A DNA stretch of 64,000 nt from Tribonema minus (lineage: Eukaryota; Sar; Xanthophyceae; Tribonematales; Tribonemataceae): assembly GCA_017506865.1 (NCBI GenBank), contig JAFCMP010000001.1:310001-374000 (forward strand), written 5' to 3'. The stretch's first letter is position 1. Each line of letters begins with the position of its first letter. Positions 5,979-58,800 of this stretch are shown piece after piece. The notes under the pieces are model-generated. The model did not search any database. It was not told where the DNA came from and worked only from the letters and a program-made list of their open reading frames with translations. Position numbers and translations under genes: made by a program.

Positions 5979-6077
5979 GATCTCTGCTACGCCATGGTGC
6001 TACATGCTACAATGCTACAGCTACATACCTATCCGCATCTCGTGCATACTGTACTACTGTTAACTGTATGCCAATGT

Positions 6078-20255: not shown

Positions 20256-23200
20256 TCAAACGCGCTCGACCACAACGATGGAGCCCCTGTTGCCACGCGT
20301 AACACGCAGCGCATCGTCCAGGTAGAGGATGTCCAGGTAGCCCTCCGGCGGGCGGTTCATCGTGTACCTGAGGGCAGTACACGGTAGTACATCACAGCCG
20401 AGGAGAAGTGATGAGGTTAAGCGTGGTGCCGGTGAGGATGCTCCGCGTGTTGCTGCAGGTGATGCTCAGGCAGCGAGAACACGCTCTTTCTGCTGGACTT
20501 TAGCAGGACGCGCTTATGGCAAGCTCGCGTGGCTTTACCATTATCAGGTGAAACGCACACCATGGGTGTTTCAGTCGTCAAGGCACCTCTTTTCCTTCTG
20601 AGATTCATGAGGGTGCATCCTGATGACAGGCGTGCAGCACTCCGGCAACTGAGACAGCAGACAGGCCTGCTGGAAACTCTCGCAGTCAGTGGAGTCCTGC
20701 GTCAATGACAGTACTGTAACCCAAACCCTAACCCCTAAGCCTAACCTAACCCTCACCCTAACCCCTACCCTAACCCTTCATATCCTCGTCAATGCCTTTA
20801 GCGCCGCGCTGGGCTGCTGTTGGTTGTGGTGAAATAACCGGATTTGATCAAGCACCAGTAGTCGAAGTCAACATTTCAGCACGCAGCCCTTCCTGTAGAA
20901 TGAACTTGCGAAATTCACCGCACTGCCCATGCTGCCAATCCCTAACACCCTCGTTGGTATCACAAGTACAAACAGTCTAGGCGACAACACCTGGTGAAGG
21001 CTGGCATTTTCCTATGGCGTCTGCCGTTGTCCAAATGGGTGTATGCGGCACCGACCACACACTTTGCACCCTACCGCCATTGCACACATGCACGTACCGC
21101 TACGGGATAGAAAGAAGCTGCTCTGACAGCACCGCTGAGAGCTTTGCACCAACACTGTAGGATGGGACATCAAGAAAGCGGGTGAAGCATTTCCAGGAGC
21201 ATATAACACCTGTGTCCTCCATCCAATGCGCCGCTGAATGTAACAACAACGCTTGGGCTTCTAGATGCTAGCCACTACAATGCAAGACATCACGGAACAA
21301 GCAATGGCCAGGGATTGCACATTTCTCAGCAGCGCTTCAGATGTTGTCTCAGTAGCAGCTGCGCAATGCTGCTATCCCCCAGAGGGGGTCTCACCTCTGT
21401 ACCCCCTGGCCGGCGTCCGCAGGGGGCTGGAAGCCCATGAACAACTTCAACATGAGGTTGGTGAGCTTCTTGCCCAGGGGGACACGCGGCTTCTCCTTGC
21501 CTTCGCGTGGCTTGAAGACGGCCTCCCACTCAGCAAGGTCCTGTAAACAAGCACAAGCATCATGTATGGAGGTATGGGTGCATGGTGACTGGCTTGTGGC
21601 AGTTGGGGTGAGTGCTTTCTGCGCTGCAGGCATGGCAAACTCTGCACGTGTAGCACCAGATACTGCTATGAAGTGCAACAGTGGCTTGCTTGGGCTTGGT
21701 GCGCGTCAATGTTGCCTGTGCCTCACACAGCTGCACACAGGATGTTGTGAGCGTTGCGGTGTGCATGTCAGCGCATGGATCAATCACGCGCCGAAAGTGA
21801 CCAAAGCCCGGAGCGGTGACATCTGTTTAGGGTTAGCGTTAGGGTTAGTTAGGGTTAGGTCTCTTTGGAGTGCATACACTTGCTGGCATGTCCAGATCGC
21901 CAGCGCTCTGCTCCACCGCGCAGCGGCTAAGCATCACATTGCAATTTCTTGCAGCACGGCTTCGCTGAAAGGTTCAACCACAAGCACTGTCTTTGCTGTC
22001 TGCCCTGCTCTTTTAGTTCGCTTATCTCGTATTGCGCTTCTTGACGGTGTGCTGTACGTGTGCGCTTACAGACATGCCACTCTGAAGATAATAGGAGGTG
22101 TCAGTTCAACCAGCTGACCACTATCAAGGAACTCTTCAGCACCGACAGTGCCACCGGTGCCAGCCGATGTGTGGCGGGCGACCAAGTCAAAATCTATGTG
22201 ACAATCATGGAGTGTGACGACAACACGCAACGTGCCAGCAAGCCCAACCCACTTGCCGGTGTGCTGTGCACGCGCACCTACAGACATGCCACCTTTCAGA
22301 AGGTAATCGTCACAATCTATGATCGTCACATGGACCTTGACACTGTCACCCGCCACCCATCGGCTGGCACCGGTGGCGCTGTCGGAGCTGAAGAGTTCCT
22401 CGATAGTGGTCAGCTGGTTGAACTGACACCTCCTATTGTTTGTTGCGAGTAATCAAACAAACGTGCCCCATGCAAATTCACATGTTTGCTAGAATGCTTG
22501 GTTTCACTGCAGTGCTGCAAGCTACGATGCTGATGCCGAAGCTGAACGACCATGAGCGGAAGCATCGCACTTTCAAATCCTGACAGGTGTGTGTGTGATG
22601 CACAGGCCAAGGTTGCGGTGTGTCAGTGCACACCAATCACCTTGACGCCAATGTCTCCACACATATCAAGTGAATGCGCCCCATGAAGCACATCTACATG
22701 ACTGCTGCAAGGGGTGACTTGGGTAGCTTGTTCAGCGCACGCCTGCCTGGCCTTGCCGCTTGCAGCAAATGTGGTCTTGCATCGAATGCCTACACCCCGC
22801 ACAGAGTATGTAGCGTAGTAACCTCGCAAACTTCAACTGCCTGTGCAGCACTGCTCAGCAGATGAAGGTACCCGCCTGCCCCTATGCAGGTGACAGTTGG
22901 GGCAATTACCCGATGAGCTGAAAATAATTAGACTACAGAGTCAGAAGTAGCTATGGGTAGATGCTCAACGAGGTGCAAGTACGTACCTGCCCCTGAGCAG
23001 GCCTGAGCTCGAGGTAGGTATGGATAGATGCTCAACGAAGCGTCAGTACGTACCTGCCCCTGAGCAGGCCTGAGCTAGAGGTAGGTATAGGTAAATGCTC
23101 TACGAATTGTCAGTACGTACCTGCCCCTGAGCAGGCCTGAGCTCGCCCGCCCCAAAGGCGACGCGCAGCCGATTGGCGTCCTTGCTGTCCGGCCAGCACA

Positions 23201-25471
23201 CACCTGACACTGCCACCTGCAGAAGCGCAACAAGGCAAAAGCCGTGTTGAGCTCACTCCTGAGCTATGCAATAACTCAACAGCCCCAATGCTCGGCAACA
23301 GAGCTCAACGGCATACAGTACAGTCGCTGTGTATGAAAAGAGCTCAGCACTGGTGCAATCCTCGTCCCAGGTACTGTCAAGTGGTCAGCAGTGAAACAGC
23401 CACTGTTGTGTCACACATACATATGTACATACCTCGAGAAAGTGCGCACTGCAAGTAGTTGATAGGTTTGCGGTAATACAAGTCTTACATGGAGGTTTCT
23501 TGTCAACAAGCCTTGTTTGAGGAGGAGGTGGCCCTACGTTGGATGATGCAGAAACACCATCAAAACAAAGCTGTGCCTTATGTGCCTGACTCTCATCTAC
23601 GCTGCGGGAAGAAGCTAAAGAGGCACGACAAACCCACGCGTCTAAGTTGGGGTTCTCTGCCTGAGACGAGTTATCATTGTATGAGGTATGCATGTATGTA
23701 TCACACAGCACCGCTCAGCAGACCTCTGGCATTTGACGCTTCACACAATCAAGCATGTGGTGGCCTGTGCGCTGTCCAGCAAGCATGCTTCATAACTAGC
23801 CTCTGTGGCTGTCAGTGACTCTGACCCGCATGCGCAGATGACTCACTAGTCTTTCGCTCAAGAGGGCACTCTGCTTCTGAGTCGTGCATTTGAGTGACTC
23901 AGTCCAATGTGAGTCATTGACTCACCTCCCCACGCAGCTCCACGCCAGACTCCGGAGAGCGCGCCACAAAGGAGTTGACCAGGTCGTACGTCAACTCCCC
24001 GGGGCGATCTGCAAGCAGGTGAAGTTCCCAGCAGCTAAAGTTGAAGTGGGACAGAAGGCTTCAAGTGGGGTGCAGGTACAAATGAGCCCTGGCAGTAGTG
24101 TTTGATTTGTGAGCAGCTAGGATGCATGAACGTCGGCGGCGCTCCCCATGACTGCGATGTCCGCTAGCATGTCTGCCGACAAAAGTTGTCATCGTACTCA
24201 AGTGAAAACTTTGAGAAGCGTGTGCGTTCGCAGCACACGCACCATTCAACGGAGCAAAGTGCGCGCACACGCAAGCCATCAGCTGCATCACTGGCAGGGC
24301 TGGGGCTGGCAACAACAGTACGGCAAAGCTTTTCAGAGAGTGCATCACGCTGAAGTACTTCTGAAGAGGGGGAATGCGGGAGCATCCTCAGCATGTGCAA
24401 GCCGCCAGCAGATCCTGGTGAGTGGGCGCGTACGCAGCTACCTGTCCTGCATTTGCACGTTGAGGACTCAAAACCACTTTCCAGATCAGCACTAATAGCA
24501 CTGACACATCGTTGTCTGAGCACTGACCTCCTTGTCTCTCAGCAGGCACATCCTCAAGCGTATTGACGATGTGGGTGATGGACACCGGCAGCTTTGTGGG
24601 TTCAAAGAGGTTGAACGCCAACCGGCCCAGCGTGCACTCCCACCCCAACGGACCGCGCTTGCCATCTGGGAAACTGCAAGCGCAGGTCGCAAGAGCGAGC
24701 AGGTTGTGAACGAGAAAGGCACGGCATCAGCTTGAAGTAGCGGGAGGACGACATTGACAGCTAGCACTCTGCACTGCTAATGACAATGAAAAACACACAC
24801 GTCCTGTTTCTCAGAAGTACGCTGATGCCACTGGTTGCTGCATGCACATGTTGATGCTGCTATCGACACCACTGGACAGCACCACATGGTGAATTCGTGA
24901 CCATGGCATCGGCCGGCTAAAGTAACTCTGCACCCGGCACATCATGAACCAACGAGAGCAGCATGATCATGTGCGTATTTCGTGATGAATAGAAGAGCGA
25001 GTCTTATGTGGTGTCGACGAGTACAGCTACAGCATAGCGCATGAAAACCGGGCAATATTTATTCCGACTGGAAAATAACTCGTGCTTGGTCATGCCTACA
25101 TGAACAGATCAGTGCTGCACTGCAACTGACTTGAAGCCAGTGGTGGCGAATGCGCCCTTCAGCAGCTCTCGCTGCAAAGCTCCATCTGTTGTGGGATTGG
25201 TCTTTGAGAGTGCGTCTACAGCCACCGCAACAGCATCATTCTTGGTGTCGCCCTCATTCGCTTGAAGCTGCTTCGCCAGCTCCTCCTTTGCATCTCTGGC
25301 GGTGACAGCAGACATGCAGAGAACGGACCCCCGGCTGGTGGACGCTGCTGCGAAAGCACTCCGCGCGGGGAGCCGAACGCCAGGGCTCTGACTGTGTACG
25401 TGAAATGCCAGACCTGGCGTCGCCAGAAGGGTAGCTGTCGCTGCTAGCACTAGTACACTGAATCGGCACAT
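20256..25471 (-). CDS. Plastid lipid-associated protein (PAP/fibrillin), 6 exons
   Basis: Fibrillins bind lipids at plastoglobules and thylakoids. Exons 25471-25131, 24673-24528, 24008-23926, 23216-23121, 21540-21395 and 20367-20256 join in phase to 307 aa. Residues 1-22 are a signal peptide (LVLAATATLLATPGLA) followed by FHVHSQ. An aromatic residue at the cleavage site is the plastid-import mark in red-derived complex plastids. Family landmarks are VDALSKTNPTTDG, LGWECTLGRLAFNLFEP, SGVCWPDSKDANRLRVAFGA and the terminal GYLDILYLDDALRVTRGNRG, ending VVVERV. All introns are GT-AG. Intron 4 contains a threefold tandem copy of the exon 4 donor region, a foldback repeat and TTAGGG units. Intron 5 holds a CCCTAA tract. 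The gene is transcribed divergently from the ADP-ribosylglycohydrolase. Confidence 0.93.
20714..20780 (-). repeat. Degenerate CCCTAA telomere-like tract
   Basis: About ten imperfect CCCTAA units (with CCCCTAA and CCTAA variants) lie in fibrillin intron 5. Confidence 0.9.
21824..21858 (+). repeat. Short TTAGGG tract
   Basis: TTAGGG/TTAGCG units with a GTTAGTTAGGG variant, inside fibrillin intron 4. Confidence 0.85.
22085..22437. repeat. Foldback (inverted repeat) element, about 350 bp
   Basis: The arms at about 22,087-22,207 and 22,315-22,435 are reverse complements at roughly 85-90 percent identity. Both start with AATAGGAGGTGTCAGTTCAA read inward. The outer flank and the loop also share TACAGACATGCCAC. 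It could extrude a long hairpin. No coding capacity is evident beyond shadow frames, and it sits in fibrillin intron 4. A MITE-like or snap-back origin is likely. Confidence 0.8.
22978..23143 (-). repeat. 67-bp tandem repeat duplicating the exon 4 end and its 5' splice site
   Basis: AGTACGTACCTGCCCCTGAG followed by CAGGCCTGAGCT occurs at 22,978, 23,045 and 23,112, exactly 67 bp apart. The last copy is the real end of fibrillin exon 4 with donor GTACGT (minus strand). The other two are intronic and carry 23 nt of exon plus the donor. The spacers share GTAGGTATGGATAGATGCTC-like sequence. Confidence 0.95.
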
Positions 25472-26228
25472 GCTGCGCTACTGCAGAGGGGAACAAGTAT
25501 TGAGGGAAAGAGGGGCGCTAGCTGTCGCTCACACTGCAGGACAATGGCATGGCGTGTCACTATCACTCTTTAACTTCATATTTTGCCAATTTTAGCGGGT
25601 CCCTTACGAAGGGAAACAGCGGCTGCTGCGAGGCGAAAAACTAGCCGGTGTCTGGCGCTAAGACGCGCTCGCCAAAAGGCCGCACCTTCCTTGCCCCTTC
25701 CGCAGGCTAGTCCCCGTCGCCACGCTGGTGCCTGTGACCCTGGCTCGGTTGAGGCCCCTGAGGGCGACAGTCCTGCACGCAGTTGTCGTGGTCCAGCTTC
25801 TGCGCAGCAGCGGCGGCAGCAGCGACTGGACAGCAGGTGGCAGCAGTAGCACCAGTCGGGGAGCCCACCTTGCAGGCGAGCGGGCGCCTGGCACGTGCAT
25901 CTGGCCATCCATGGGATGCACGCAGGTTCGGTCGAAACACAATTAGTACCACTCGTCGTAATCAGCAGCACTATCATCCGCTAGTCTTAAGCGCCTGCAA
26001 GAATTTACCCCTTTCAGGCCTGCCGTAACGTGCTGCACAGAGCTCAGGTCAGCCGGACCCCTCCGCCGTATCTTGGAATGGCCGAGACCCTCTTGATTGC
26101 AATGCACAGCCCGAGGCCCGCCAGTTCCACTGCAGGGCCCAAACTTATTCGCATCGCTGGTGTGTGAATCACAACTTGGCAAGCCTTTTGTGCTGCTTGG
26201 GCTCGCATGACAACAATTCACGATCTTT
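25472..26228. other. Intergenic region between divergent genes
   Basis: It separates the fibrillin start (minus) from the ADP-ribosylglycohydrolase-like gene (plus), so both promoters should be here. Open frames of up to 133 codons exist on both strands, but they overlap, are GC-driven and match nothing I know. No TATA-type element is obvious. Confidence 0.5.
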
Positions 26229-29200
26229 GTGTCCCTGCGCATGTTTTCGTGTTGTGTGCGTGAATGGCAACTTATCTGCCATCGAACTTTGCGGTCGTGT
26301 ACCGAGTACGTGCTGTCCATGCCGTCCCTTCATTACCTCCACTGCTTGCCCTGGTGTCGACATGTGCAGGCGAAACCGGGTCACTTCCTGGACTCGCCAG
26401 TCACGAAGCAGCAGGACGCGCCCCCGGTCACCCCCCCCGACCTGCAGTCATCGGATGATGCTGCAGCCATCGCAGCAGCTCAGTCGTTGGCTGCCGCCAT
26501 AGGCACCACCTCCACATCAGCGGGCCCGATACCAGACACCGTCTACCGCACCACCATCAACACGCCTTACGACTTGCAGTCGTCGGACGAAGCAGCTGCG
26601 AAGGCAGCGGAGGATGTCGTTAGGCTGCTGGCGGGTGTGAGCAGCCCTGCGGAGGCGGTGGAGGACAGCGTGCCGTCGCCCAGCAGCACGCGCGCGCGCG
26701 CGGCCGTGCTCGCGAGCTTCGTGGCGGACGCGGCGACCACCGGCGTGCACTGGATCTATGAGCAGGACAAGGTGAGAAGAGCACCAGCTGCTGCAGGATG
26801 CATCTGCAGCAGGCTCAGTAGCTCATATGCGACAAAGGCCGGGTCAGATAGTAGCCATTTTACTCTTTTGTTGGACAGGCCAGCCTCACCCGGCAGCACG
26901 CACACTCACACGTCGGCGCGGGCGGCATGCTGGATGCACACCCGCTGTGACAACAGGTGGCGATTTCCGGCGTCGAAACATTGGAGAGTGCTGGGAAGAT
27001 AACGCGCGGTCGACACAGGCCAATGAGCTGACTTTGGTTATGCGTGGTGCTACATCTGTTGTGGAGGATGGTCCGGTGTGAGAGCGCGTGTGGCCGAGCC
27101 ATGTGGGGGGGACGACAACATCGGTGCAAGCATTTAGATCTGGTGGTTTCGGCCGGGCCGCGCGACGTCTAGCGAGCTAGTGAGACCGTGTTGTGTGTAT
27201 CACAGCCGTCGTGGCTGCCGGCTGGCGCTGTTTTCAGATTCCCATGGTCTTTGCGTTGGGTCAGGGTAAGCAAAGTCTTGAGCCGCACAATTTTGCCATT
27301 GGCGCAGGTGTGGCGCCTGCTCACAGGTGAAATGTCTACTTCGGAGTATTCAAAACTGCTCACTGTTACAGCTCCCTGCACTCAGCGGCCTTGAAATTTG
27401 TGACTGGATTACGGACTGCACCGAAACTCTGCTGCGCGCAACACCACCTGCTCAATCCCACATGGCCTGGGACATGCCTGCAGCGGGAAAATCACATCTG
27501 GCTCAAGTATTCGATTGCGCTTTTCATGATTGACGAGACAGTCTCGACCACAAGCAGGGTTAGTAAGGGCAAAATGATATGGAGGGTGAGCACTGACGTG
27601 CGTGTCTGACGCGTGTCATGCTGCAGGTGGCGGAGCTGGCAGCGGCGGATGCTAGGCAGGGCAGATCCATCGCCTTCCACTGTGAGTGACTTGCAACAGC
27701 TGCCGCTCACGTAGGCATGCGAGCACGATTAATGATCAGTACGGCAGTGCTCGGTATTACACTGCCCGTCAGTGCAGTGCCGGGGCAACAAGCATGGAAT
27801 ACCTGTGCAGTTGAATGGCCTGCCTCAAGTTATTCCACTGCAACTGGTCATCGTACAAGGATGATTTGAGGATGCACGAAAAGGAGCTCGAAAAGGTCCT
27901 CCATGCATACTCTCAAGTATTTAAGAAGTGCTCCTCCAGAGTATATCTCATTGAGGTGCACGTCTAAGACATGTTCTTGAAGTTAAAGTTGGGTCAATTG
28001 GGTTCAACACCCACATCGGCGTGGCACATGTATTTCAGTCAACCAATGACCACGACCTGCTGTAGATGCGCCACTTCATGAACAGCACCTAAGCTATTGT
28101 ATAGAAGTACTTGTGGAGGGTGCCAGCCTGCGGCCACGCTGCCAACTTTCGGCACTTGCCCGCCTTTCAAAGTTCACCCACTGATACCAAGTGCCAGCAG
28201 AAATAGCAGAGATGGCAGGTCTGTAATTGTTTGGTTTGTGATTCAGTAGTGCGTGCAAGAAATATTCAAGTTCATTCTTAATGCCAATATTCTTGCAGCT
28301 CAACTCCTGCTCATCCTCATCGTTGACTGATGCTGTTACAACACTGTTGATGCTCGCTGCTGCAGACCCCCCTGCATGCCCCTTTTACACCACCCAGGTG
28401 GGGGATGCATCCCCCTGGGCACACGAGCTGATCCCCCTGCTGAGAGTTGTGGCATCGACCAAAACCATGGACCCTGAGGTGTATGCGTCCGCGTGCCGCC
28501 ATTACTTCAAAGGTGCACACACACTGTAGTTCAAGTTGTTGTGCATGCTGTCCGTGTGGCGCGCCATTTGCCAAGTGATGAAGAATCTGCTTCATGCCAT
28601 GCAGTTTGCCAATAGCAGGCAGTAGTTGGGTTATCAGAGCTGGCAGCTGCTTGTTGACACATCCTGCGCTGTGTCCGGAGCTCTGGTGGTCGTGCACTGT
28701 TCCACTCTGCGCAACAAGGGGCCTCTGCTGTCCTTTCAATACCCAGCCTGCACGCAATTGCTCTAGTATAATTCTCAGTATATGAAAGCATGCCCAAACT
28801 GCATGCACCGATTGCTTTAGTGTGATTGAAATATGTGGAAGCATCTCAATACAAGTTGCTGACCCCCTTCACATGGCTGCAAACGTGTGGTGGTTGTTGT
28901 GCCTGTACTGCAGAGGAGTCTGCATTTATACCGTACACAAACAGCGCGCTGCGCAACGCGTTTGCCAACATGAACGCCGGCAAATCCTGGCGCGAGGCGG
29001 CTACCGACGACACGCAGGCACACGGCATGGGCAAGGTACGCAGGTGTAGTGTGGCCTATCCCTACCCCATGCATGGGAAACGGACGTGTGCATGTCATGG
29101 CATGGGCCAGCTATCATGTGCGCCTGAAACATGGCATGCGCAAGGTATGTACACAACTCTTTGACTTCAAAGTGTCATGTTTAATAAAGTGCTGTGAGCT

Positions 29201-32200
29201 CGTGCCATCCAAAATGCCATCCCCTGAGGGCCGCAGCACCGGTGTACCCACATGCGTCCCCCCCTTTCTGTTTGATGTCCACTGTCACCTGATGCGCTGA
29301 TGGCGCTTAACATCTCATCATCTGTCCCCTGTAGCAGTGCCATGTGATTCATGCGTCTTTATCGACTGCCTCGTGCACGGTAGTCTCCTATCCTAGTGGC
29401 GCTCTACGACAGTCAGTCAGTAAATCCATTATCACGTGCCCGGGCCAATTCACAACACCGCATCAGCACAATGCTCTCAAGTAGCCAATCACGGTTGCAC
29501 ACTTCAACCTGAGTACTCGTCCTGCCGTCAATTAAAAGTTGCATCGCCTGTAACTGCCATATGCATGGTGCTGGCCGGCCTCTTAAACAGCACTGTTTTG
29601 TAGGGATATGGGCTAAGGTCACGGAGGGATATCGCAGAGTGTACCCACACGTAGAGTTCTACGATCTTTTGATTCGTTTTTACATAGAAAACCTAGTCAA
29701 AACCTCAGCGAGCGTCAATAGCGGCATTGATTATCTCCAGCGCCTGTTCAATTTATTCTGTTCCATTCATTCTGCGTGCGCGCACCAGGCTCCTATTCTG
29801 GTGGCGCTCTACCACGGTCAGCCGGAGCTGCTGGCGATCAAGGCGGAGGAGGCGTGCCTTGTCCATCAGAACAACCCCATGGCCGTCAACTTTGCTGTGG
29901 CCTCTGCACAGGTGCTGTACCTACTGACATTGCAATATAAATGTACCAAACATTGTCACCTAGAGCTTCACGATCACCCCCTGTGTCGTAGTGCTGCCGC
30001 CTTTGCTCATCGGTGGTGTGCTCTGACCCTGTCTTCGGGTGTCGTCACAGGTGACACCATTTCCGATACAGCACGCGGCTGGTTTGCTGTGTCTCATGCG
30101 CACCCGCTCACAGATGATGCCTGCTTCTGGCAGCCCCGTGTGGGACAGCCTGGATGCGCCCTCGTTTTGTTGAAGTGCTATGTTGAAGTAGATGTACAAG
30201 CATGCCCAACGGTGCACTGTCCCCGTCATTCTTGTAGTTTGATCACGCACAGAGCGCAATCACTCGCGTTCTTGCGCAGTGACTGTTGAGACATCAAGCC
30301 TATGCACAGCGCCAGGACAGCCACGCCCTCCATGATGCGCCATCCGCCATATCTCGCACCGAGCACTGTTTTGTCATCATATCCAACGCACTCCTGTCAT
30401 CGAGATTGTGCTCACCGCTGCAGCACCATGTGCCTTAGTCCAAATGGAGTCCAAAGTGCATCCGCCTCGTGAGATGGCATGACGCAACCCAACCTCACGT
30501 TGCGGTTCCAGGTCAATAGGTGCGTCGATAGGTTCACATGGCTAGCTACGCACGCTCTAATCTGACTTTGCCTTTGTGCTCGCTGCAGATTCTGGACCGC
30601 ATTGTGGAGGGCAGCACCATCAAGGACGCGCTGGAGTGGGCCGCAGCACCAGGCAACCTGCCGGTGAGCGGTGCTGTCGGATAACAGCTTCAACTTGAAC
30701 TCATGAAAAGTGACAACCATGAGATTCTGCACTTAGGGGAAGAGCTAGGGATAGGAGTAGGGTTAGTGAGTTAAGTCAGGGGTAGGAATAGGGTAACGGC
30801 TGGGGGTTAATCATAAGGGTTAGGTCAGGTTTGGGGTCCGGGTTGACAGCCAGAGTACAAACTTCATCTGCTCGCCTCTGGAATGTCAAGCTGACACCAT
30901 GAGCTTGTGTGAACGATGAATGACATTGTTGTATGAGAGATGTGCTCGAGTGGCAAGCAGCACCTGGCGACGACCTGCTGGTAACTGGCCCGATGTCCAA
31001 ACAAAGCTCAAACATCTGTATTCGAAACAGTGAGGGGGGGTCAAGACGGCTGCGCCGCAGCGCTCACCAGACAACGACGACCCGTACCGTTGCCCTGCAG
31101 GAAACTGAGCACTGCGGTGCACTGGCAGACACTTCAACAAAATCATTCCATGCGGCTGGCGTCCTTTTGCTGGCAGGCTCATCAACACAACTTCAACTTT
31201 CCATACACGACCGATAATGGGTGCGGCTGTTGTGGTCTATGCCAGTAATGGGCACTGCCTGCTGCTCTCCAGTCAGAATACCTCATGTGTGAGGGTGAGC
31301 CTTCTGCCTCTGAACATGAAAGCTGCCCACATTACTTCAATTGTGACTTTAATGCAATTTTTGCATATAGCAGTTTGCTGATAAATGCCCCCCTGGGTGG
31401 TGTGCAGGCTGAGGCGACAGAGGCAGTGGCAGCAGCGCTCGCCAGGAAAGACCAGGGCTTCTCACAGGCCGTCAAGGAGATGGGGCTGAGGTAACTTGAT
31501 GTTCAGTGTTCGACATTGCTTGCGTGACGTGAAGAAATGTGAAAGCGCTAGTGTCCCCTCCGCTGTTGGCTTTGCACGACTCGTCATTTGAGCAACTGCT
31601 GTCACCTCATGTCTGCCTGCGCAAGTGTGTATGTATGTATACTCACCGCTCTGCTCGCCACATATGTGTTCACCGCCACCGCACACTCGTCAAGTGGCGG
31701 TGCGCACACATCGCAATGTTGGTGTACAGCTGCATCGTGAAGCTCACCACAGGCACGCCACGGCTATCAGGCATTTCACCAGTTTCTGACGTCCAAATTG
31801 CGCTTTGATGCACCACAACAGTCACGGTTTGCATTACGATTGACGAGTGTGTGCGCACAGCTGCTCCTTTCAGCACTGAGTCACATCTGATTTGATCACA
31901 AACCCACACGTCACCAAATCACTTGCCGTCGTGCAATCCTGTGTGCGCTTCACAACATGTTGATGTGTAAATATGTATGACTCTACCGCTTGCCGTCACT
32001 TGCAGCTGCGCAGCTGTGCGCTTCACGATTAGGTTTATTTGCTCAAAGCTGTGTCTTGAGCATTTGCCAACTTCCGATATGTACATCTGCACGCCACCAC
32101 AGCATCTGCCCATGTGTTCCATTGAAATCACCATTACCACATAACTTGCGGTCACGTGCAGCTGCGCTGCTTACCGTCGTGCGACCCTGGGGGCACTTGA

Positions 32201-33238
32201 CAACATGTTGAAGTCTGAATCACGTACTTGAAGTTTGACGCTACCGCGTGCAGCTGCGCAGCTGTGCGCTTCACGGTTAGGTTTGTTTGCTCGAAGCTGT
32301 GCCTTGAGCATTCTTGAACCAACTTGTGGTGTGTACCAACTTTTGATGTACTGCACACCACCACACCATGTGTGCTCCATTGACATCATCATTACCACAT
32401 GACTTGCCGTCACGTGCAGCTGCGCGCTTCCCGGCGTGTTCTCCGGCGCCGTTCTGGCGCTGGCCAAGGCAGCGGACGCCGGCGAGGCAGACTTCCAGGC
32501 TGTCATTGAGGTATGTACGCCTAGTAGAATCAGATGCATACCTAACTTTAAGTGTAGTGTGAATACTGTAGGTGGACTTTTAGGCTATGATTGAGGTATG
32601 CACGCAGAGCGGAATGAGAGACGTACCTGCCTTTGAATGAAGATATGAATACTGTTGGTGGAAATCCGGGCCATCATAGAGGTATGCACGCAGGTAGAAT
32701 CAGATATATAACTGCCGTTGAATGAAGATTTGAGTCACTGCTCCTCTGTCTACTGTCCTGCGGCTCTCACAGTGGGACTGCCACGCTGCGTGTAGGTTGC
32801 AGCAACTGCTTGCGCGACGGATGCTCACACTGTGCATGCTCGCGGTGGGTTTATGCTCAGTTTCTTGTGTCCTTGCAGGCAACACATGTGCACAGATTGT
32901 GGCAGCTGCAGATGGTCATGCCGCCACGTGCTTGACAAAGAAACGTTGACGAAGGCCACGTGCTTGACAAAGAAACGTCGGCGAACCAAGTCACAGAACA
33001 ACGCACTTATCCCTGTGCTGTCGTCAGCTTGTAGCTTCCACTATCCACCTAATTGCATTGCCCCCGAGCGCTGCCGCAGGCCAACATGCTGGCGGGCGGC
33101 GACAACTGCTCGCGCGCGGGCTTCATCGGCGCGTGCCTCGCCGCGGAGCAGGGCATTGAGTGCGTGCCGCAGGAGTGGATCGCACAGACCACCGTCTTCG
33201 AGGAGGCGGAGTCCCTGGTGGACAGGATCTTTGCCTGA
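26229..33238 (+). CDS. ADP-ribosylglycohydrolase-like protein (J1-crystallin type), 9 exons
   Basis: Exons: up to 26771 (open from 26229, true start unsure), 27627-27681, 28366-28512, 28914-29035, 29789-29911, 30589-30663, 31408-31490, 32420-32510 and 33080-33238. All phases agree, for up to about 479 aa. The fold is recognised from ASFVADAATTGVHWIY, PPACPFYTTQVGDASPW, ATDDTQAHGMGK (the first metal-binding TDDT), NPMAVNFAVASAQ, CALPGVFSGAVLAL and the C-terminal LAGGDNCSRAGFIGACLAAE. Active hydrolases normally have GGDxDT at that last position. The GGDNxSR form seen here lacks the second Asp pair, as in J1-crystallin-like members, so hydrolase activity is doubtful. The Ala/Ser-rich N-terminus repeats the block PDLQSSDDAAA / YDLQSSDEAAA. 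Introns 7 and 8 contain tandem copies of the adjacent splice junctions. Confidence 0.88.
30757..30832 (+). repeat. Degenerate TTAGGG-like tract
   Basis: GTAGGGTTAGTGAG, GGGTTAATCATAAGGGTTAGG and similar imperfect units in the intron after exon 6 of the ADP-ribosylglycohydrolase-like gene. Confidence 0.6.
31922..32425 (+). repeat. About 248-bp tandem duplication carrying the exon 8 acceptor
   Basis: The unit CTTGCCGTCGTGC... at 31,922 recurs at 32,170. Each unit contains a CACTTGCAGCTGCGC or CACGTGCAGCTGCGC segment like the real acceptor (GTCACGTGCAG at 32,409-32,419, then CTGCGC of exon 8). Intronic decoys with AG plus the first exon bases lie near 32,003, 32,160 and 32,250. Confidence 0.85.
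32498..32735 (+). repeat. About 85-bp tandem repeat duplicating the exon 8 end and 5' splice site
   Basis: GGCTGTCATTGAGGTATGTA (the real junction, 32,498) is followed by GGCTATGATTGAGGTATGCA (32,583) and GGCCATCATAGAGGTATGCA (32,669). The spacing is 85 and 86 bp and the internal sequence is shared (GAATACTGTTGGTGGA). The intronic copies keep both the exon tail and the GTATGC donor. Confidence 0.92.
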
Positions 33239-37466: not shown

Positions 37467-40400
37467 TCATTGCAGCAGCACCATCCAGCTGAGGAATGCG
37501 TAGAAGAAGAAGACGGGGTACACCGCCAGCACCTTGCGCTCCGGAGAGATGATCTGCTTGATGAATACCACCGACGCTGCAGGGACGGCAGTGGAAGGCA
37601 GTGCAAGGCTGTCAGTCATCAGTCTGGCTGTAATTGGTGGTGAATTCATGCTCTCTTTTGTGGCTATTGGCTATCTGTGCGTGCACTCACTCAGAGTCAA
37701 TACATCTGGACTTGGCTTTGATCGTAGGCAGAAAAGTCACGGAAGCACAAAGATTCATGAACAGCAAGTCAGTGCATGTGTTACCCTGCGCCCTCCTTCT
37801 TGTCGACGTGTGAATACTAGGGGTGAAAAGCATGGCGGTAGAAACACATCACAATTGGACAGACGCAGGTCAGCGTCCTGCGGCTCTGCAGACATAGCGC
37901 ATCTTCGACTGTGCTGTGCTGCTGCACATAGCCTAAAGTTGATGTACAGTACTTCAACATGGTGGCTGCCCTGAAGACAGTACCTCAACAATACAGTAAA
38001 ACCGCACTACTTTCAGAGCTAGACCATTAGCCGACATGCCTACCACGTCAGCAAGCTTCCCACCAATGAGATCCTTGCTGCGAGATCGCCCTGATTCACA
38101 GCTGCTATGTACAGGCGTCTGATCTGTCCAAACATCCCCCACCATCACAAATTCAGAGCACCAGTCAGCCCCACACTCAAACACGCAAGATACACATGGA
38201 ATCGCCAGACAGAGGAAATAGCTTTGCGAATGCATGGAAGCATGTCAGACTGGGGGCATTACACCCATCACTCCTGTGGATACTGCAACGGCTTGAAGCA
38301 TAGCAAATGCTACAACACATGCTATTCGCTAACATCGCCTGCACTTGGCGGTGGAGCACGCCGAGTTGGCTCAGATGCCTGTCTCCAATGTCTACAATCT
38401 ACCCCGGCTACAATCAATAGTTCATTCGCGCAGGTGACATGGCAAACGCCGCTATACTTCCCCACCGTGCTTGCATTGCAAACACCTACTTCATTGAAAG
38501 TCAGTTGAGAATTTCAACTTCAAGTAAAGATTCCACCTGGTGGGGGCGGGCCGGGGCGCCGCCGCCACCGGCACAGTTCAACTTCAAGTGAAGCTCTTAG
38601 ATTCAAGTGAAGTTCTCACCTCGTGTGGACCACATGAAGCCCACGACCACGAGCAGCGCGCGTATGAAGAACAGCCCCGTGAGCGCCTTGGCAATGAGGC
38701 ACGCCGCGCTCGCCAGCACCAGCGGGAACACGCAGTACCCCAGCACGCACACGCTCTGGAAGAAGGAGATGCCCCCGCCCAGCAGTTGCGCGTTTACAGT
38801 TACCATGGCCGCCCCGCACCACACGACGACAAACACCGACGCAAAGACGAGCGCGCCCTGGTTGGCGGGCGCCGTGGAGCTGAGCATGATAGAGAGGACC
38901 AGGCAGACCAGCAGAGGCCCCCAGAGGTCCCACTCCTTCAGCTGTCGAATAGAACGGGGGGGAGGCAAGTCAGAAGGATGAGCCATGTTTGATGCTAAAG
39001 GCAACTGCTGTGCAGGGGATATGAGCATGGCGTAAAGGATCAGGCACACCAACAGCGGCCCCAAGAGGTCCCACTCCTTCAGCTGTTGCCAGAAGGGGGG
39101 GGACGCAAGTCATAGTTGCGGAGGAGGATGAGCCATGTGTGGCGGACATGCTGGAGAGATCAGTGACATGCGGCTGCTGTGCAGGGGACACAAGCATGAT
39201 GGAGAGGACCAGGCACACCAGCAGCGGCACCCAGTTGTTCCACTGTTGAGCACGAAGAGGGAGGCAAGTCACAAGTTGAGGAGTGTCACCCGTGTCAGCC
39301 TGTCAGGTCTGCTGAGAAGATAAGAAAATGGCGCTGCACTCGTTCAATTGTTGATTATGGGATAGGCAAGTCACCATTTGAGGAGAATCAGCCGCATTGT
39401 CTGATAAAGCTGAAGAGTTGAGGCATGGAGGCGGCTGTGCAGGGGAGCACCACGGATGCAGAGGATGACTGTGCCGCCCAAAATTTCCACATTTTACATA
39501 GCACCTGATGTTTGATCGAAGTTGAAGCGTTGCTGGTGTCATTAGAAAATCCGTCATATGCGATAAACGTGATAGCTTCAGCGTTAGAACTGCACCTGCA
39601 ACCTCAACTGCATGTCACTACCACTGAGTTTGAGGCTTGAGTTTCCACTCTTCGCAACGCAGTTGCCACATGCGCAGTCGCAGCTGAAGCACTGGGAAGC
39701 TGATGGACTGGCGATGACTGTGCTGCTTTCGCAGATTTGATGTTCAACTATATGATGTTCAACTATATTAGGCCAACCTGCATAGCTCTGCAGTTCCAAC
39801 ACTGAAGTCCTTTGAACAATGTCATGCTACCGTTCTAAATTCGAGTCCAATGCCTTCTCTAGCATTGTTGCAGGTAGTCTATAGGTAGTAGCACACCAGC
39901 GCCTTGATGGCGATCCATCCTGTATCGCGTGTGCATGAGCCATGCCACATTGCGCAAGCGCACAAGACACGCAAGTATACCGTATGAAGACACCAAAGTT
40001 CTTCGTTGAGCGGACTGTCGCACCGGACTGACCTTTTTGAGCACTCCTTCCTGGTCGCCTTTGGGCATCAGCACTATTTTCAGCTTGCTGCCCACTTGCC
40101 TAAGGTCCCGCATAATGGTCTCGCTTACTGGCTCATCCAGAGTATTGTAGTACGCCATGTTACCGGGAGCTCCACCTGCAGAGAGAGCGGACACGGTTGT
40201 CAACACAAGCGACAGGTGTGCACTGTCGCAGCAAGTCGATCTCTTGCGCCAGAATCATTGACTTGAGTGAGACTTTCGAACGCCGCTAGATGCCGCAGCT
40301 ACTGGCAGATACCAACGGCAGTCTGTCTGTCGTTTAGAGCGTCTCCACCGGTGCCTTTCTTATGCGGCTAGGCCAACGCTTGAAACTCAACAGTTGCTGT

Positions 40401-44640: not shown

Positions 44641-44819
44641 ATCACTGACGCGCACCCACCGATCGAACGAATGCTGCCTCACCGTCATACCTGGTTCTGA
44701 AAAGCCAATGCTTCAAGTATAGTTCAAGTCGTTCCAGCTGGTACTTTGCACAGCAGATTTGAACCCCCCATATGACCCCATGTGGCAACTGCATGCAATT
44801 TGAGACTCTGCACTTGATA

Positions 44820-47740: not shown

Positions 47741-48137
47741 GGGTCTTGAAGTTGAAAGATGAGAGCCCCGCCAGAATAAACTCGCAGCTTCCCTGGGGTG
47801 TCGACGGGACGCTGGAACTTAAAGCTGAACTGTTGTGGATGAACACGGCAAGGGGGGGGGTCTCCTTGGTCACACACTGGTTGCATGGCTGGTGAACGGG
47901 CGCAAGAGGAGGACGCTTCCGCCGGCAGGGCCAGGCGTGTAGGCCTGCGCATTGCACTTCAGGCCCACTACATACGCGTCTACAGCCGTATCGAGGAGCT
48001 TCAAAACCCCATACGCTGGTGCTGGTGGATGCTGCCACGCACAGAGAACGAGCTGGCTCTGCAAACGGCGCTGCTGAACACTTTGGTGCCGTATCACCTG
48101 GAAGTGACAGAGGAGCAACGACAGATGGCGGATAAAT
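47741..48137 (+). CDS. Probable exons of an unidentified gene
   Basis: Two overlapping frames look coding: KLKDESPARINSQLPWGVDG with LELKAELLWMN (about 47,741-47,850), and RVGLRIALQAHYIRVYSRIE with WWMLPRTENELALQTALLNT and TEEQRQMADK, the latter ending at a GTGAGC donor at 48,138. The second resembles helical structure. I cannot assign a family. A frame change between them implies an intron or decay. Confidence 0.3.
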
Positions 48138-49522: not shown

Positions 49523-49657
49523 CCATGACATCACCACATGCGGAGGCCCGGTCACTGTCACACGAGTCACTATGCTTCAAGGATATCCCTCGAAATTTGG
49601 TGGAGGAGCTGTTTGCAGCCATGGCGGAAGTAAAAAGGAAAGAAGCGCAGGAGAGAG
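49523..49657 (+). CDS. Possible exon of an unidentified gene
   Basis: This is bounded by CTGGGCAG and GGTGAGG. It reads MTSPHAEARSLSHESLCFKD then NLVEELFAAMAEVKRKEAQE, a charged helical composition. No family recognised. Confidence 0.3.
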
Positions 49658-51400: not shown

Positions 51401-51639
51401 ACATGGCGCATTTGTGTCTTCAACACAGGGTTCTATGGGGCTTCTGAATACCGCCAGGCCACCTTCGAGTGCTGACACACCAATTCTCACAATGGCAGGC
51501 CGTCGCCGCCGCAGCAGCCGAGCCATCATCATCCGCAGTGTCGGCTTCTGCAGTAGCTGTGGACGCCTCTGCACAAACGGCAGCAGCGGATGTCATGACA
51601 CTGAATGAACTGCACTTTCGGCGTTTTGCCGTCATTGTC

Positions 51640-51800
51640 ACGTTGCTCCTGCCACACCCAAGCAGCAGAGCGACATTCTGTTCTGTAGCTGAGTTCAAAG
51701 TGTTTGTCGATGAGGGTTGGATAGATGTGCGCTCCTTTAGGAACAGATATGGAAACCTGTGCGGTTCATGCCAATGTACGCCTTGGTGATCAGCGTGCTT
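51640..51800 (+). repeat. Left inverted arm with coding-like content
   Basis: It is the reverse complement of about 52,565-52,765 apart from a roughly 40-bp insertion. It encodes CSVAEFKVFVDEGWIDVRSF, while the other arm (minus strand) encodes CTVAEVKVLLDDGRIDVRSF. The substitutions are mostly conservative at protein level. I know no family for this peptide. Confidence 0.7.
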
Positions 51801-52590
51801 GACAAGGCCTTCATGCCAAGGTACGCCTTGGCGATCAGCGTGCTTAACAAGGCCTTGATCAGCGTGCTTAACAAGGCCTTCATGCCAAGGTACGCCTTGG
51901 TGATCAGCGTGCTTAAAAAGGCCTTGTCAACAAGGCCTTGCTAACTTGGTGATCAGCGTGCTTAACAAGGCCTTTGTTAACAAGGCCTTTGTTAACAAGG
52001 CCTTTGTTAACACATGCACTACGGTCCCAACTGCACCCTCGGGTGCGGGCGGGATGCCTTTATTAGATTGAAACCAATGCGGCGCAAGCCGGTGTTGTGG
52101 TGACTCATAATAACCTAGCGAATCGCATGCCCCTCGTGGGCGGCGATGTTTCATTCAAGTTTCTGCCCTATCAGCTTCATTAACTAGGCCTTGTTAACAA
52201 GGCCTTGTTAACAATGTTTTTAACAAGGCCTTGTTAACAATGTTTTTAACAAGGTTTTTAACAAGGCCTTGTTAACAAGGCCTTAGTTAACAAGGCCTTG
52301 TTAGCCTTGTTAACTAAGGCCTTGTAACTTGGTGATCAGCGTGCTCAACAAGGCCTTGCACGCTGATCACCAAGTTAACAAGGCCTTAGTTAACAAGGCC
52401 TGATCACCAAGTTAACAAGGCCTTAATTAACAAGGCCTTGTTAACTAAGGCCTTGTTAAGCGTGCTTAACAAGGCCTTCGTTAACCAAAGGCCTTGTTAA
52501 CAGAAGGCCTTGTTAAGCACGCTGATCAGCAAGTTAACAAGGCCTTAGTTAACAAGGCCTTGTTAACCACGCTGATCACCAGGGCGTACC
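51775..52590. repeat. Palindromic AAGGCCTTGTTAAC array
   Basis: About 800 bp built mostly of AAGGCCTT and GTTAAC palindromes, interspersed with TGATCAGCGTGCTTAAC in both orientations. A unique insert (about 52,015-52,180) splits the array. The array can fold on itself at many scales. It lies between inverted arms at 51,640-51,800 and 52,565-52,765, just upstream of the RlmN gene. Confidence 0.92.
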
Positions 52591-52765
52591 TTGGCATGAA
52601 CCGCATGAGTCCTGATGCATTATGCCTCTTGATCTCATCGCACAGGTTATCTGCTCTATTAAAATAAAGGAGCGCACATCGATCCGACCGTCATCGAGTA
52701 ACACTTTGACCTCAGCTACAGTACACAGAGTGTCCCTCTGCTGCTTGGGAGTGGCAGTGGCAAAA
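52565..52765 (-). repeat. Right inverted arm
   Basis: The minus strand reads PKQQRDTLCTVAEVKVLLDD followed by GRIDVRSF. It pairs with the left arm at 51,640-51,800 and contains an extra segment, GATGAGATCAAGAGGCATAA. Confidence 0.75.
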
Positions 52766-52891
52766 GATGGGCGGCTCACAGCTGGCTCACTCAGCGATAA
52801 AACTCCATCCAACTTCACTTCAACCCCTTGAACTTTCAGTTGAACTCCGGGAAGTTTGTGGAGCGGGGTGGTAAGCAACAAGGGCACCATG

Positions 52892-55800
52892 GTGAAGCGA
52901 AGAGTCCTATCGCCGATGCCTTTGCTGGACGAGGGATGCCTGCTGGAGCTGCTGCGCGAAGAGGGCATGAAGCCCATGCACGCCCACACAGTCTGGCACA
53001 ATGCCATCGTACTAGCGCACAAGACCCGGCAGGATGGCGGCGACTACACGACGACTCGCCTGACGGAGGACATACCCAAAATTCCCGTACGCCTCAATGC
53101 ACTGATTCAGGAGCGCTTTGCGGTGTTCACCAGCAAGGTCGTGCAGCTGCAGCAATCGGCGGATGGCACCACGAAGCTGCTGGTTGAACTTCAGGATGGA
53201 CAGAGGGTGGAGAGCGTCATCATACCACACCTGACCGCTGATGGTCATGCCAGGAATACACTCTGCGTGAGCAGCCAGATCGGGTGCCAGATGGGGTGAG
53301 TTGGCGATGTTGGTGTGGCATTGTGAAGTCATTGTGTCAACAGAGGTGCACTTGAGAGGCTTCACGACAGTAGATCATTGATGCGCAAATCTTCGAGCAT
53401 TTCAAACTACATTCAGCATAGCACATTTATGCGCAATAGCTACAGGTATTGGCGCTTCTTGCCAAGTGGGCTCATCGTTAAGCCGTTCGCTGCCAGCATG
53501 TGACATAAGCCGAATTAGGTATATTGCTGACTGCCGGCGCTTCTGAGTTCTGGGACAGTCGCTTGTGCAGAACCAGCAGCAGTTTATGGCTGGTATGTCA
53601 GCTTGTTGTAATTATGAACAACAACCCATTTTTGCCTCTCTGCTGATAGAACATCAACAAAATGCGGCTTTCGCTCTGAAATTGCTGGACTGGAGGTGTT
53701 GTGGCATACAGCCCGTTTGGTTCTGACACATGCTTGATGTCAGCCCAAAGACAGAAAGTTACTAGCAATCAGTGGGTGCGGAATCACTGCTGACAGCCCC
53801 GTCCCAAAAATTGCTCTCGTGGCAGGTGCACCTTTTGCGCGACAGGAACCATGGGGCTCAAGGGGGACTTGCTGGGGGGAGAAATACTGGAGCAGCTGCT
53901 GCACGCGTGCATGGTGGCGCCGATGCGCAACATTGTGAGTGCCCTGACTGCACACTGGAAAGTTCTCTGTCAGCGTCAAGTAAGCCCTCTGCCCTGTGCA
54001 ACGTTGAGTGCCCTGAATGCACACCGTCAAGGCTCTCCGTCAGCGTCAAGAAAGCCCTCTCTGCCTGTGCAACATATGCTAACCCTGACCCTAACCCTAA
54101 ACATCCCACGCGTCCGCAGCGCACTCGCACAGACCAACATGTCGCAATCAGCGTGTGGTAATGCGCCGCATCAATGCGCTGCTTCACCTGTGCAGGTGAA
54201 AGCACGCTCCGCTGCAGCGCTGGCAACGTCAAGCAGCTGCCTTGGGGTTCACCTCTGCTTGCTGTTGCCTGCTGTGGGTCATTACCGTCAGCACCATTTG
54301 TACACTTGGCTGCTTGGCGTTACATCACCTCTCCTTAGAGTCCACACAGTGAACTCCATGTGGTCCACATGTTGAACTCTCTATCTTCATGATATCTTAT
54401 GAGAACGAATCAAAAGATCGTAGAGCTATTAGTAGCTCAACCTCAGCACCTGGCCAGACTCGCCCCTTCCCACCTAGAAGTGCTGCACTCCTCAGTGAGT
54501 GAATGAGAAGCACTTTGGATCTTCTCCAAGGCTTTGCGTGTGTCGGCCTGGCTGCTCTCTTGAACATTCTGTACCTAAGTGCAGGTTTAGAAACAGATGC
54601 CACGACCTTCTGTATGCATGAAAACGCCTGTCGCCAATGCTCCATGTGAGAGCAAATGCAGTGCACTACGCGCATCTCGCAGCGCTTTAGGAACTCATAC
54701 ATTTGTGGTGACCGCACATCGCGTACTCTTTCGTGCGCAGGTGTTCATGGGTATGGGAGAGCCGCTCAACAACTACGAGGTGAGGCGGAGCTGCATTACT
54801 CTTGATTGAGGGTTTGTACCACTGGCCATAAGGGTATGTATCACTCATACATTTGACTTACCTGCTGCAGCACTCAAGCACAGCTTCAGCCCCACAAAGT
54901 CAACATTTGCGGGCGTGGCGCAGAGCTCAACAGCGTCAAAGCACACGTCTGCCTGCCTTTGCATCTGCACAGCATCTTGCGCTGAACTATATGTCGCTTA
55001 CGCGGTTGGCGCATGTTGCCCGTGTGAATGCGCAGGCTGTCATGAGCGCCATACGGGGCATGAACGACCCCAAACGCTTCTGCATCAGCCAGAGGCACAT
55101 CACGCTGTCGACCGTCGGCGTGGTGCCGGCCATACGCAGGTACATGCTTATGTTATCGTGTATTCAATGTTGAGGTTGAGGTTGGCGTTAGAGGTCAGGC
55201 CTGATCTGAATGCTCGATGCGTACAGTCAACTGGCTGAACAAGTTGCGCCTACCTGTTGTATTTGCGCTGGCCTCCTGTGGCTGCAATACAGATCAACTG
55301 GTGCAGTCCTGCTTGCTCTTTCTGGCATGGCTGAGCCCTTCATCATCGTATTGCCAGTGTGACAGCGGCTGGCATCCAATTGCTACGCGGACGAATGAAT
55401 GTTTGAATGAATGTCAAGGCGCTCCGGTGTTGCTTGCTGTCACTGTTGCCTGCAATGCAGCCCAAACGATGCAGAGGTGGTATGCCGCACCAGGCGTTGT
55501 GCGACCAGATTGGGGTTGAAGTTGTAGTGTTACTGCACTTCAACGTGGCGCGCCAAGGGGCAGCCTCGCCCAAATGAGAACCCCAACGCTCCTTACTCGG
55601 TAGGAGACTGGGGCATTCGCTTCGCTGCTCAACACATGATTCACTCATGGCGCTCATGAGTAGTGACATGCCGCGCCGCCGCTGCCGCGCAGGCTTACGC
55701 GCGACGCCCCCGACACGCAGCTGGCGCTGTCGCTGCACGCGCCCAACCAGGAGCTGCGCAACCAGATCGTGCCCTCGGCGTCCGCATTCAAGCTGCCGGC

Positions 55801-58800
55801 GCTCATGGCCGCGGTGGAGGCGCACATCGGCCACACGCCCGCTAAAGCGCAGGTGCGTCTTATTTCCTAACCCTGACCCTGACCCTAACCCCTTGCGCGT
55901 GCTAGCACGGTGTGCACGGGAGAACTGGGGTGGCCGCGGCGCTGGCCCTAAAAGTCGGCATGAGGGCAGGGTTGGGCTTAGGGTGAGGGTCAGGCCACAT
56001 CCCACCGCACAAGCCTTGTCTCACCACCACAAGGCATACTGTGTAATCTGGCCTCTACAGTGCCTTGCGCGCCGTTTCTGGAGCCCTTGCTCGCCCTGAG
56101 TTCAGAAGTCAAGCCTGCAGAGGCAGCACCATTCACCACCGTGCCGCTCGTCTGCTACAGCTCAGGAGAGTGTCCCCCCTTACCCTCTCATGATATCTGC
56201 GCTGACTCGCGTGCTATCGCTGCAGCTGACACCTACCGTACCCGGGCGCCCATTGGTATGCATGAATGTAGTGTGGCTTGCCACATTTGTGACATGATGG
56301 TTGTGCTGCTCCCTCAAGCGACCCCACTCATGAACTTGAACGTGTGCTACGCAGGCATCCGCAGTCAACCACCGTGCCGCACGTCCACAGCGTAAAACTG
56401 CTCCTCTTGCCCTCTCGTGATATCTGCGCCGACTCGCGCGCTCTCGCTGCAGCTGATACCTACCATAGCCGGGCGCCCATTGGCATGTACAAATGTAGTG
56501 TGACATGCCACTATTGTGACATGGAAGTTGTGCTGCTCCCTCAAGCGACCCGGCTCGTGAACTTCAAACGTGTGCTGCGCAAGCATCCGCAGCAGAGCGC
56601 TCGCTGCAGCTGATATCTACCTACCGTATTCCGCCCCGCTCTGACGGGCGCCCATGGCATGTAGTGTAAACATGTTAGGACTACCATCGTTCTGTTCACT
56701 CAAGCGACCCCGATCGTGAACTGCAAACGTGTGCCGCGCAGGCGTCCGCAGCGGAGCGCGGCGCCGGTGACTCTCCGCCGCCGGGCATCACCCCCGATGA
56801 CTTTGGCGGCGTGGCCAGCACCATCGGCGAGGTTCCCCCTGCCTCCACTGCCAGCAGCAGCGGCGGCGGCGGCGGCAGCGGCGGCGGCGGCGGCGGCAAG
56901 TTTGGCGGCGGCAGCGGCGTGACCAGCAGGATGTTCGGGCGCAAGCGCGCGCTGATAGAGTACGTGCTGCTCTCGGGCGTGAACGACACGCGCCGCTGTG
57001 CGCACGAGCTGGGCGCGCTGCTGCAGGGCAAGAGCATGGTCGTCAACCTCATTCCGTACAACGCGACGCTCGTGGAGGGCGACGCATTCAAGGAGCCCAT
57101 CGAGGAGGACATTGTGGCGGTGAGTGAGCAGTGCTCAGTAGGTGGTGTGTTTCTCAGGGTTAGGGTTCGTGGAGGGCGACGCCTTCAAGGAACCCATCGA
57201 GGAGGACATTGTGGCGGTGAGCAGCGCTCAGTAGGTGGTGTTCTTAGGGTTAGGGTCAGGGTCAGTTTTAGGGTTCGCGGAGGGCAACGCCTTCAAGGAG
57301 CCCATCGAGGAGGACATTGTGGCGGTGAGTGAGCAGTGCTCAGCGCTTGAAGTAGGTTTGATCTTCAAGGAGCCCATCGAGGAGGACATTGTGGCGGTGA
57401 GCAGCGCTCAGTACTTGAAGTAGGTGGGGTTTGAATGTGTCACTACCTGATGAAGTTGCGGTGTGTGTGTGCCCTTGTCTCGCGGCACTCTGTTGGTGTG
57501 CACAGGTTTTTAAAGTTTGAGTGCTGCTGTCGCAGGGTCTCCTAACCCTAACCCTACTAGTAGTACCCGATCTTGTCAGCCACCACTGACCGGTTATGCA
57601 GCCCTAACCCTTGCAGCGGACTGAGGAGTCTCTCGGAGGTAGGTTTAGCCATAATAACTCTGGGTTTTGACGCATAAGTGTCTTCGTGCCTATGCACAAA
57701 ACAGATCCCAGCGCTGTTGCAGTCAACATAATACCTGCTGAAGTAGACAAATAGATAGACAAAAAGAGGCAAATAGAGGCAAGCCTTTATGATAGCGGTA
57801 AGCATCTATTTGAGACCAAATCACGTTGACATCTTTGACACTGATCGCAGCACTTGTGTGCACTGCTCAAGCGGGAGCTGCCAGCATACCGGTTGTTTTG
57901 GTGCCAAACGCACAGCTCCAGCAGAGGTGCCCACCCTAACAGTGTGTAACCGTAGTTAGTTGAAAGTCTACAGCAATTGCCACCTATATCTGACAAGAGC
58001 TTCTGAAGTCAAGCTTGCTGTGCTGATTTTCACTTGCTGCCTGCATTCTTCAACCTTTTTTGCATGCAGTTCAAGGAAATCGTGATGACCTACGGCCTCT
58101 TTGTGACAGTCAGGTGAGTCCACAAGATGCGTTCAGTTATTCATTCGCAATCACTTTCCCTGTGACGCACTAGGGTATACTTGCTTGGTCCACTAATCAT
58201 GGTGTAGCTCTTCAGTTACATCTGCTCGTCGCTCTAATCTCAGCTGTTGCAGCTGCTTTCCACGATGCCTACAGTAAGTTGTACGAACTCACCTGAGACG
58301 TTGCGCTAAATTTTACACTGTGAGCGTGCAGCTGTGCCTGTCAAATTGCACACACGGCATCGTAGTCAGCGCCCTCGCCGACCTCCGTCTTGTACGGCTC
58401 ACCACCTGCCTAGTGTCAACTTCAACCCTCAACCTCACTGCAACGCTCCCCACGCGCGCAGGCGCCACCACGGCCGCGACATCGACGGCGCCTGCGGCCA
58501 GCTCGTGCTCAAGACGGAGGCGGAGAGAGCCGCGGGCCTCGCCAGCACCAGTGCTCAGCAGGGTGGTTGCGGCGGCACCGACATCGAGGACATTGGCAGG
58601 GCCAAGCCTCAGGCCGGCAAGCGGACAAAGCAGAGCACTGCTGCCAACGCCGGCGCGCCCACCAAGTCCAAGGGCCGTACCAAGGCGAAAAGCGCCGCCG
58701 CGGCCGCGCAGAATGGCGCCGACGCCGCCGCCGGCGGGAGCGACGACGGCGACGGCAAGGGCGGCGGTGCCGCTGCTGCCGGCGATGGCGGCGCCGCTGC

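Follow-up and report, generated by a model that had tools for sequence, protein, structure and literature searches.

We analysed a window of 64,000 nucleotides from the xanthophyte Tribonema minus (contig JAFCMP010000001.1, positions 310,001 to 374,000 of the forward strand; positions below are those of the window unless stated otherwise), in which a first-pass annotation had described seven tandem duplications at the splice junctions of four genes, encoding a fibrillin, an ADP-ribosylglycohydrolase, YIPF6 and RlmN. All seven tandem arrays (7/7) were confirmed at exon-intron junctions of these genes using Tandem Repeats Finder and self-BLAST, and their combined extent, 22943-57425, is narrower than the range first given (20256-58113). 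The arrays, together with the RlmN gene model, are as follows.

22943..23145, minus strand: fibrillin donor array, 67 bp x3; the used exon end is 23121 and the intron holds two donor copies.
31922..32438, plus strand: ADP-ribosylglycohydrolase acceptor array, ~248 bp x2, preceding exon 32420-32510.
32490..32733, plus strand: ADP-ribosylglycohydrolase donor array, 85 bp x3, following exon 32420-32510.
38881..39275, minus strand: YIPF6 acceptor and exon-start array, three copies at offsets of 141 and ~169 bp; used exon start ~38942, from direct reading of the sequence.
53924..54073, plus strand: RlmN donor array, 71 bp x2, with an exon part of only ~10 bp, after 53934; this splice is confirmed by homologues.
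56121..56759, plus strand: RlmN acceptor array, 232 bp with a third copy at 159 bp, before exon 56742-57119.
57070..57425, plus strand: RlmN donor array, four copies, after 57119; homologues hold the copied peptide once.
52916..59020, plus strand: RlmN gene, from the gene finder and homologues.
52916-53295, 53826-53934, 54741-54779, 55036-55139, 55693-55852, 56742-57119, 58070-58113 and 58462-59020, plus strand: RlmN exons, from the gene finder.

Three of the four genes were assigned by Pfam (PAP_fibrillin, ADP_ribosyl_GH and Yip1); the ADP-ribosylglycohydrolase had no match in PDB at E 0.001, and its identity was given by Pfam instead. The fourth was identified as RlmN by its homologues, with the best matches in Ectocarpus, a genus of brown algae (51-54% identity), with Chrysoparadoxa, Nannochloropsis and oomycetes among the next hits, and with green algae matching as well at lower coverage. 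On this one protein the genome falls among the photosynthetic stramenopiles. Arrays and gene identities thus agree with the first description. Two extra copies in RlmN, 57175-57216 and 57283-57396, were called exons by the gene finder, a reading that we rejected because the corresponding peptide is single in the homologues. Another diverged copy of an ADP-ribosylglycohydrolase acceptor (29789) lies ~420 bp upstream of it (29365-29788), outside every counted array, and the fibrillin intron contains an inverted repeat (22090-22220 and 22307-22437, 89% identical).

We then extended the analysis from the window to 264 contiguous kb, comprising the window and 100 kb on either side, in a genome of 158 Mb and 554 contigs. 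Genes were predicted with a two-strand hidden Markov gene finder, purpose-written in C, seeded with long reading frames and trained on the 264-kb region itself, which yielded 24 genes and 225 introns with a median length of 492 bp. Predicted donors were mostly (C/A)AG|GTGAG-like and acceptors GCAG|G-like, with a median junction posterior of 0.98. The predicted exons agreed with homologues across RlmN donors 53934 and 57119, across the array-bearing donor of an M1 aminopeptidase and across an intron of a YprA-like helicase that carries an array at both ends, so that at the array junctions of these three genes the protein is unchanged relative to homologues. The gene finder also had weaknesses: it truncated the YIPF6 exon, missed one ADP-ribosylglycohydrolase exon, fused some adjacent genes and called some junction copies exons. 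Two predicted introns have junction arrays at both ends, at positions 14589-15320 and 167429-168656 of the 264 kb (contig C1, 224589-225320 and 377429-378656).

Self-BLAST of the 264 kb gave 61 clusters of close direct repeats, 37 of which passed a tandem rule (period of at most 500 bp, with a match at least 0.7 times that long), the other 24 being discarded. We also removed, as possible copies, 15 predicted exons contained entirely in arrays, leaving 210 introns, and the 31 genic arrays less one all-exon array left 30 intronic arrays to be tested, a junction being counted when it lay at least 5 bp inside an array. An exon-intron junction was contained in 24 of these 30 arrays (17 donor, 7 acceptor), the bias being stronger at donors than at acceptors. 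When each unit was placed at random over its own intron, collapsed to a single copy, 10.0 were expected (P ~4e-9), the hits R206451 and R222062 having an expectation of 1.0 and contributing nothing; when placement was uniform over gene space, after extra copies had been collapsed and without positions lying entirely in exons, 7.6 were expected (P 2.5e-10). The rate excess at junctions is about eight-fold (24/10.0 against 6/20.0), and some of the six intronic arrays without a junction sit in predicted introns that probably run from one gene into another. Varying the thresholds and the intron set over the 264 kb gave P values of 1e-8 to 6.5e-4, re-clustering gave 25 of 33 arrays with a junction (12.1 expected), and the 264 kb without the window gave 20 of 25 (10.3 expected, P 5e-6). 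Within the window five of eight intronic arrays span a junction where 1.8 were expected (P 0.009); the YIPF6 array is absent from these counts, its junction having been missed with the truncated exon. The claim that junction arrays exceed chance, first made for the window, therefore held in both samples. Array positions and counts also support the claim that the duplications enlarge existing introns and leave copies of splice sites inside them.

A second test took points rather than arrays, scoring 40-base cores against the adjoining 500 bp on either side. A nearby copy of the core was found at 26/210 donors and 25/210 acceptors, compared with 5.9% of 2318 points in intron interiors and 4.5% of 1381 in intergenic DNA; duplications as frequent in intron interiors and intergenic DNA as at junctions, which the first-pass annotation had named as evidence against any link to junctions, were thus not what the 264 kb gave. 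Exon points 90 bp from a junction had copies at 1/89 on the donor side and 4/91 on the acceptor side, and those 120 bp from acceptors at 5/70. The best match lay in the junction's own intron for 18 of the 26 donors and 11 of the 25 acceptors, the remaining copies falling in neighbouring introns or exons and including dispersed and low-complexity repeats. Because some counted copies lie outside the junction's own intron, we added a same-intron control, in which 20/210 donors and 13/210 acceptors had a copy, against 149/4636 one-sided interior points (124/2318 two-sided), which puts the excess at about three-fold for donors and two-fold for acceptors.

The pattern, initially presented as a matter of four genes, extends well beyond them, through the 264 kb and onto other contigs. 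Six 10-kb loci (L030-L035) were chosen from the list of a Helicase_C genome scan before their sequence was inspected, and contained ten arrays, nine of them in predicted introns; seven of the nine held a junction, where 3.7 were expected (P 0.016), one of the seven having an expectation of 0.98. Looser clustering, applied to L030-L032 only, gave four of six arrays with a junction. The same scan found, on contig C157, an exon end repeated twice more, and the corresponding piece holds this exon end in three near-identical copies, each with a donor, and a fourth, more diverged copy. The copied exon end codes for what we take to be the HRIGRT motif of the helicase. This locus was left uncounted, as it was selected for its repeats and the gene finder misplaced that exon end.

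We proceeded to characterize the copies of the junction that lie inside the introns (decoys), using a sample of 54 donor and 25 acceptor copies, with YIPF6 included manually. In the exon part, donor copies had an identity of 0.866 and acceptor copies of 0.877 to the used junction; the intron part gave 0.79, and the splice dinucleotide (GT and AG, respectively) 0.889 and 0.900. The dinucleotide was intact in 44 of 54 donor and 20 of 25 acceptor copies, near the 0.75 and 0.77 predicted from exon-part identity, and the decoys were chosen by alignment through the junction, so that retention is overstated if anything. In 70 copies of 39 junctions, mismatches at codon positions one, two and three were 11.6, 10.2 and 17.3%, and 41% of changes were synonymous, compared with 28% expected without constraint, as would be expected of a copy that decays neutrally while the exon itself stays under constraint. 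The decoys decay nearly neutrally and, judged from these substitutions, look like passengers that are neither useful nor actively removed. Of the earlier statement that decoy sites are placed within introns, their presence stands, while no sign emerged that they act, their decay being much like that of neutral DNA.

We favour, at roughly an even chance, the explanation that short tandem duplications keep forming, with a preference for exon-intron junctions in use, that splicing hides them and that introns lengthen from their ends. A local tandem duplication, with units of 65-248 bp in our sample, would form at a working junction; across a donor it would create two donors, of which the first is retained, and across an acceptor the last acceptor would be retained, the first donor and last acceptor presumably being the sites used in RNA. 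The protein would be preserved and the surplus copies turned into intron, and since copies beside a donor or acceptor fall within the intron, the protein can stay unchanged as the intron grows. Old copies would decay near-neutrally while new ones form at the same junction, so that the intron would grow from its ends. Intron interiors are tolerant too and carry about the intergenic level of copies, and hence the junction excess needs more than tolerance, which suggests that the bias would lie in mutation rather than selection. A possible source is paired nicks or breaks, later filled in and joined, at places where transcription, splicing or chromatin has a boundary. By eye, two of the youngest non-junction arrays look blunt at their breakpoints or bordered by a G run. 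A wider version, in which transcription, splicing or exon chromatin would give rise to breaks or nicks that make working junctions hotspots of duplication, and introns grow from both ends by an undescribed process perhaps general in brown-alga-like genomes, we put forward tentatively, as somewhat doubtful. Of the junction-targeted process first proposed, the enrichment at junctions stands; a process aimed at junctions is one possible reading of it, as the excess could be mutational or selective.

Several observations weigh against the explanation that we favour. The mutational origin of the bias is reached by reasoning rather than by direct observation. Array coverage of acceptors (7/210) is no higher than that of mid-intron points (9/210). 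Only 3 of the 24 junction-array periods are divisible by three (P 0.02) and 14 of 24 leave a remainder of one. Donors in arrays score higher than others (6.44 against 4.84, P 0.0012), suggesting that the survival of duplications depends on the site too. Differences between one decoy and another by codon position (11.5, 9.8 and 15.8%) lean to the third position, as either repeated copying of the used exon or weak coding constraint could produce. Lastly, in a ROK1-like helicase gene (locus L029, positions 3200-4100) the copies of an exon end differ, by eye, almost only at third codon positions, which neutral decay would not easily give.

The junction excess could also arise if exons as such were prone to duplication, with wholly exonic duplications purged and those reaching into an intron surviving through splicing. 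Exons are GC-rich (0.69 against 0.55), and there are three all-exon repeats, whose periods are all divisible by three, so that harmful exonic duplications appear to be purged. This account predicts mostly exonic units, however, whereas units average ~38% exon by hand measurement; the three all-exon repeats are also the only ones in 58,839 coding bases, and non-junction arrays cover GC contents of 0.34-0.73, so that GC is no obvious driver and was set aside as such. We regard fragile exons as unlikely, and hold the same view of random duplication combined with a bias in survival or detection, by which copies near exons would be deleted less and copies of constrained exons would stay recognisable longer. 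The better preservation of exon parts (0.87-0.88 against 0.79) and the near-intergenic level of copies in intron interiors (5.9% against 4.5%) speak for such a bias, but the excess persists among arrays whose identity is 80% or more (a junction in 9 of 13, 3.6 expected), which have had less time for decay, and slower decay near exons is therefore unlikely to be the whole cause; the own-intron null, moreover, already accounts for intron length.

Decoys might instead be functional, as extra U1-binding or acceptor sites aiding intron recognition, in recursive splicing or as alternative exon ends. Full splice motifs are often kept in decoys, and both the stronger array donors and the third-position pattern at L029 would suit a function. 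Dinucleotide retention close to that of the copied exon sequence rules against it, however, as does the codon-position pattern of a neutral copy of a constrained exon, and 21 of the 24 periods would shift the frame, so that we consider functional decoys quite improbable. An assembly artefact was rejected, since at identities of 68-97% (median 77%) the array copies differ too much to stem from collapsed or repeated reads. We likewise rejected attraction by a splice-like DNA motif: in the 13 arrays without a called junction, with the YIPF6 array and one exonic array among them, the best donor and acceptor scores are ordinary, at mean percentiles of 0.54 and 0.35. With motif, GC and fragile exons disfavoured, breaks or nicks linked to the junction appear to be the simplest remaining account.

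Introners, which are copies of one dispersed element, have repeatedly added intron sequence to the genes of algae and other protists. The arrays share this recurrent addition but differ in that every array copies its own junction, and none of the seven window arrays was among the distant repeat pairs within the window, as a dispersed family would be. Tandem genomic duplication is itself an established source of new introns in the AGGT model, as set out in the available part of its description (PMC3443670), and the arrays resemble it in combining local tandem duplication within a gene, rescue by splicing, which hides the duplication, added intron and an unchanged protein. In that model, as described there, an exonic unit creates a new intron with its donor and acceptor at equivalent places in two copies; the arrays, unlike this, extend one end of an existing intron whose other end is usually unrelated, and instead of an intron of at least about one unit between equivalent sites, same-intron copies adjoin one intron end. 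Predicted introns R166481-166641 and R184748-185063, which pair donor and acceptor cores, are possible AGGT cases or gene-finder errors. Tandem dual-specific splice sites are known in human genes including UBC, where, in the part of the report available, splicing can buffer repeat expansion and includes or removes coding repeats as complete units, the intron being a multiple of the unit (PMC10809524). Splice sites within tandem repeats are common to both, as is the capacity of splicing to absorb added repeats; unlike those of UBC, most copies here are out of frame, and they seem to be unused. The introns of Ectocarpus are long (median 524 bp) and its tandem repeats fairly even over site classes, their density being given by broad site class, with no junction-level test, in the available part of that study (PMC12477816). 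Like intronic minisatellites and the Ectocarpus repeats, the arrays repeat units of tens to hundreds of bases head to tail, and their introns are of comparable length. Junction-biased duplication enlarging existing introns was not found in the literature titles and abstracts searched, subscription journals being mostly outside their scope. What appears to be new is the junction-biased growth of existing introns; tandem duplication as a route to new introns is known.

Transposable elements and drift are the usual explanation for long introns. If duplications favour functional junctions several-fold, introns would have a separate means of growing, and splicing or transcription would leave a mutational footprint on DNA; such a bias would also explain why exon ends with splice sites lie inside introns. 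Such copies also mislead gene prediction, several of them having been called exons here.

Telomere-like TTAGGG tracts were set aside as a cause of the arrays, lying within 30 bp of 3/24 junction arrays and 2/13 others, no clear excess. Short TTAGGG/CCCTAA tracts occur in introns and intergenic DNA at 12346-12373 and 20717-20777, and in RlmN introns near 54085, 55870, 57160 and 57545. Upstream of RlmN (51643-52763) lies a fold-back array in which TTAACAAGGCCTTG-like units occur in both direct and inverted orientation and which looks like a small inverted-repeat element. A dispersed pair of copies (523-1241 and 6067-6785, 98% identity) lies beside a reverse-transcriptase-like gene (645-5652, minus strand), which has an internal stop as modelled and whose protein tail resembles those of other predicted genes of the 264 kb.

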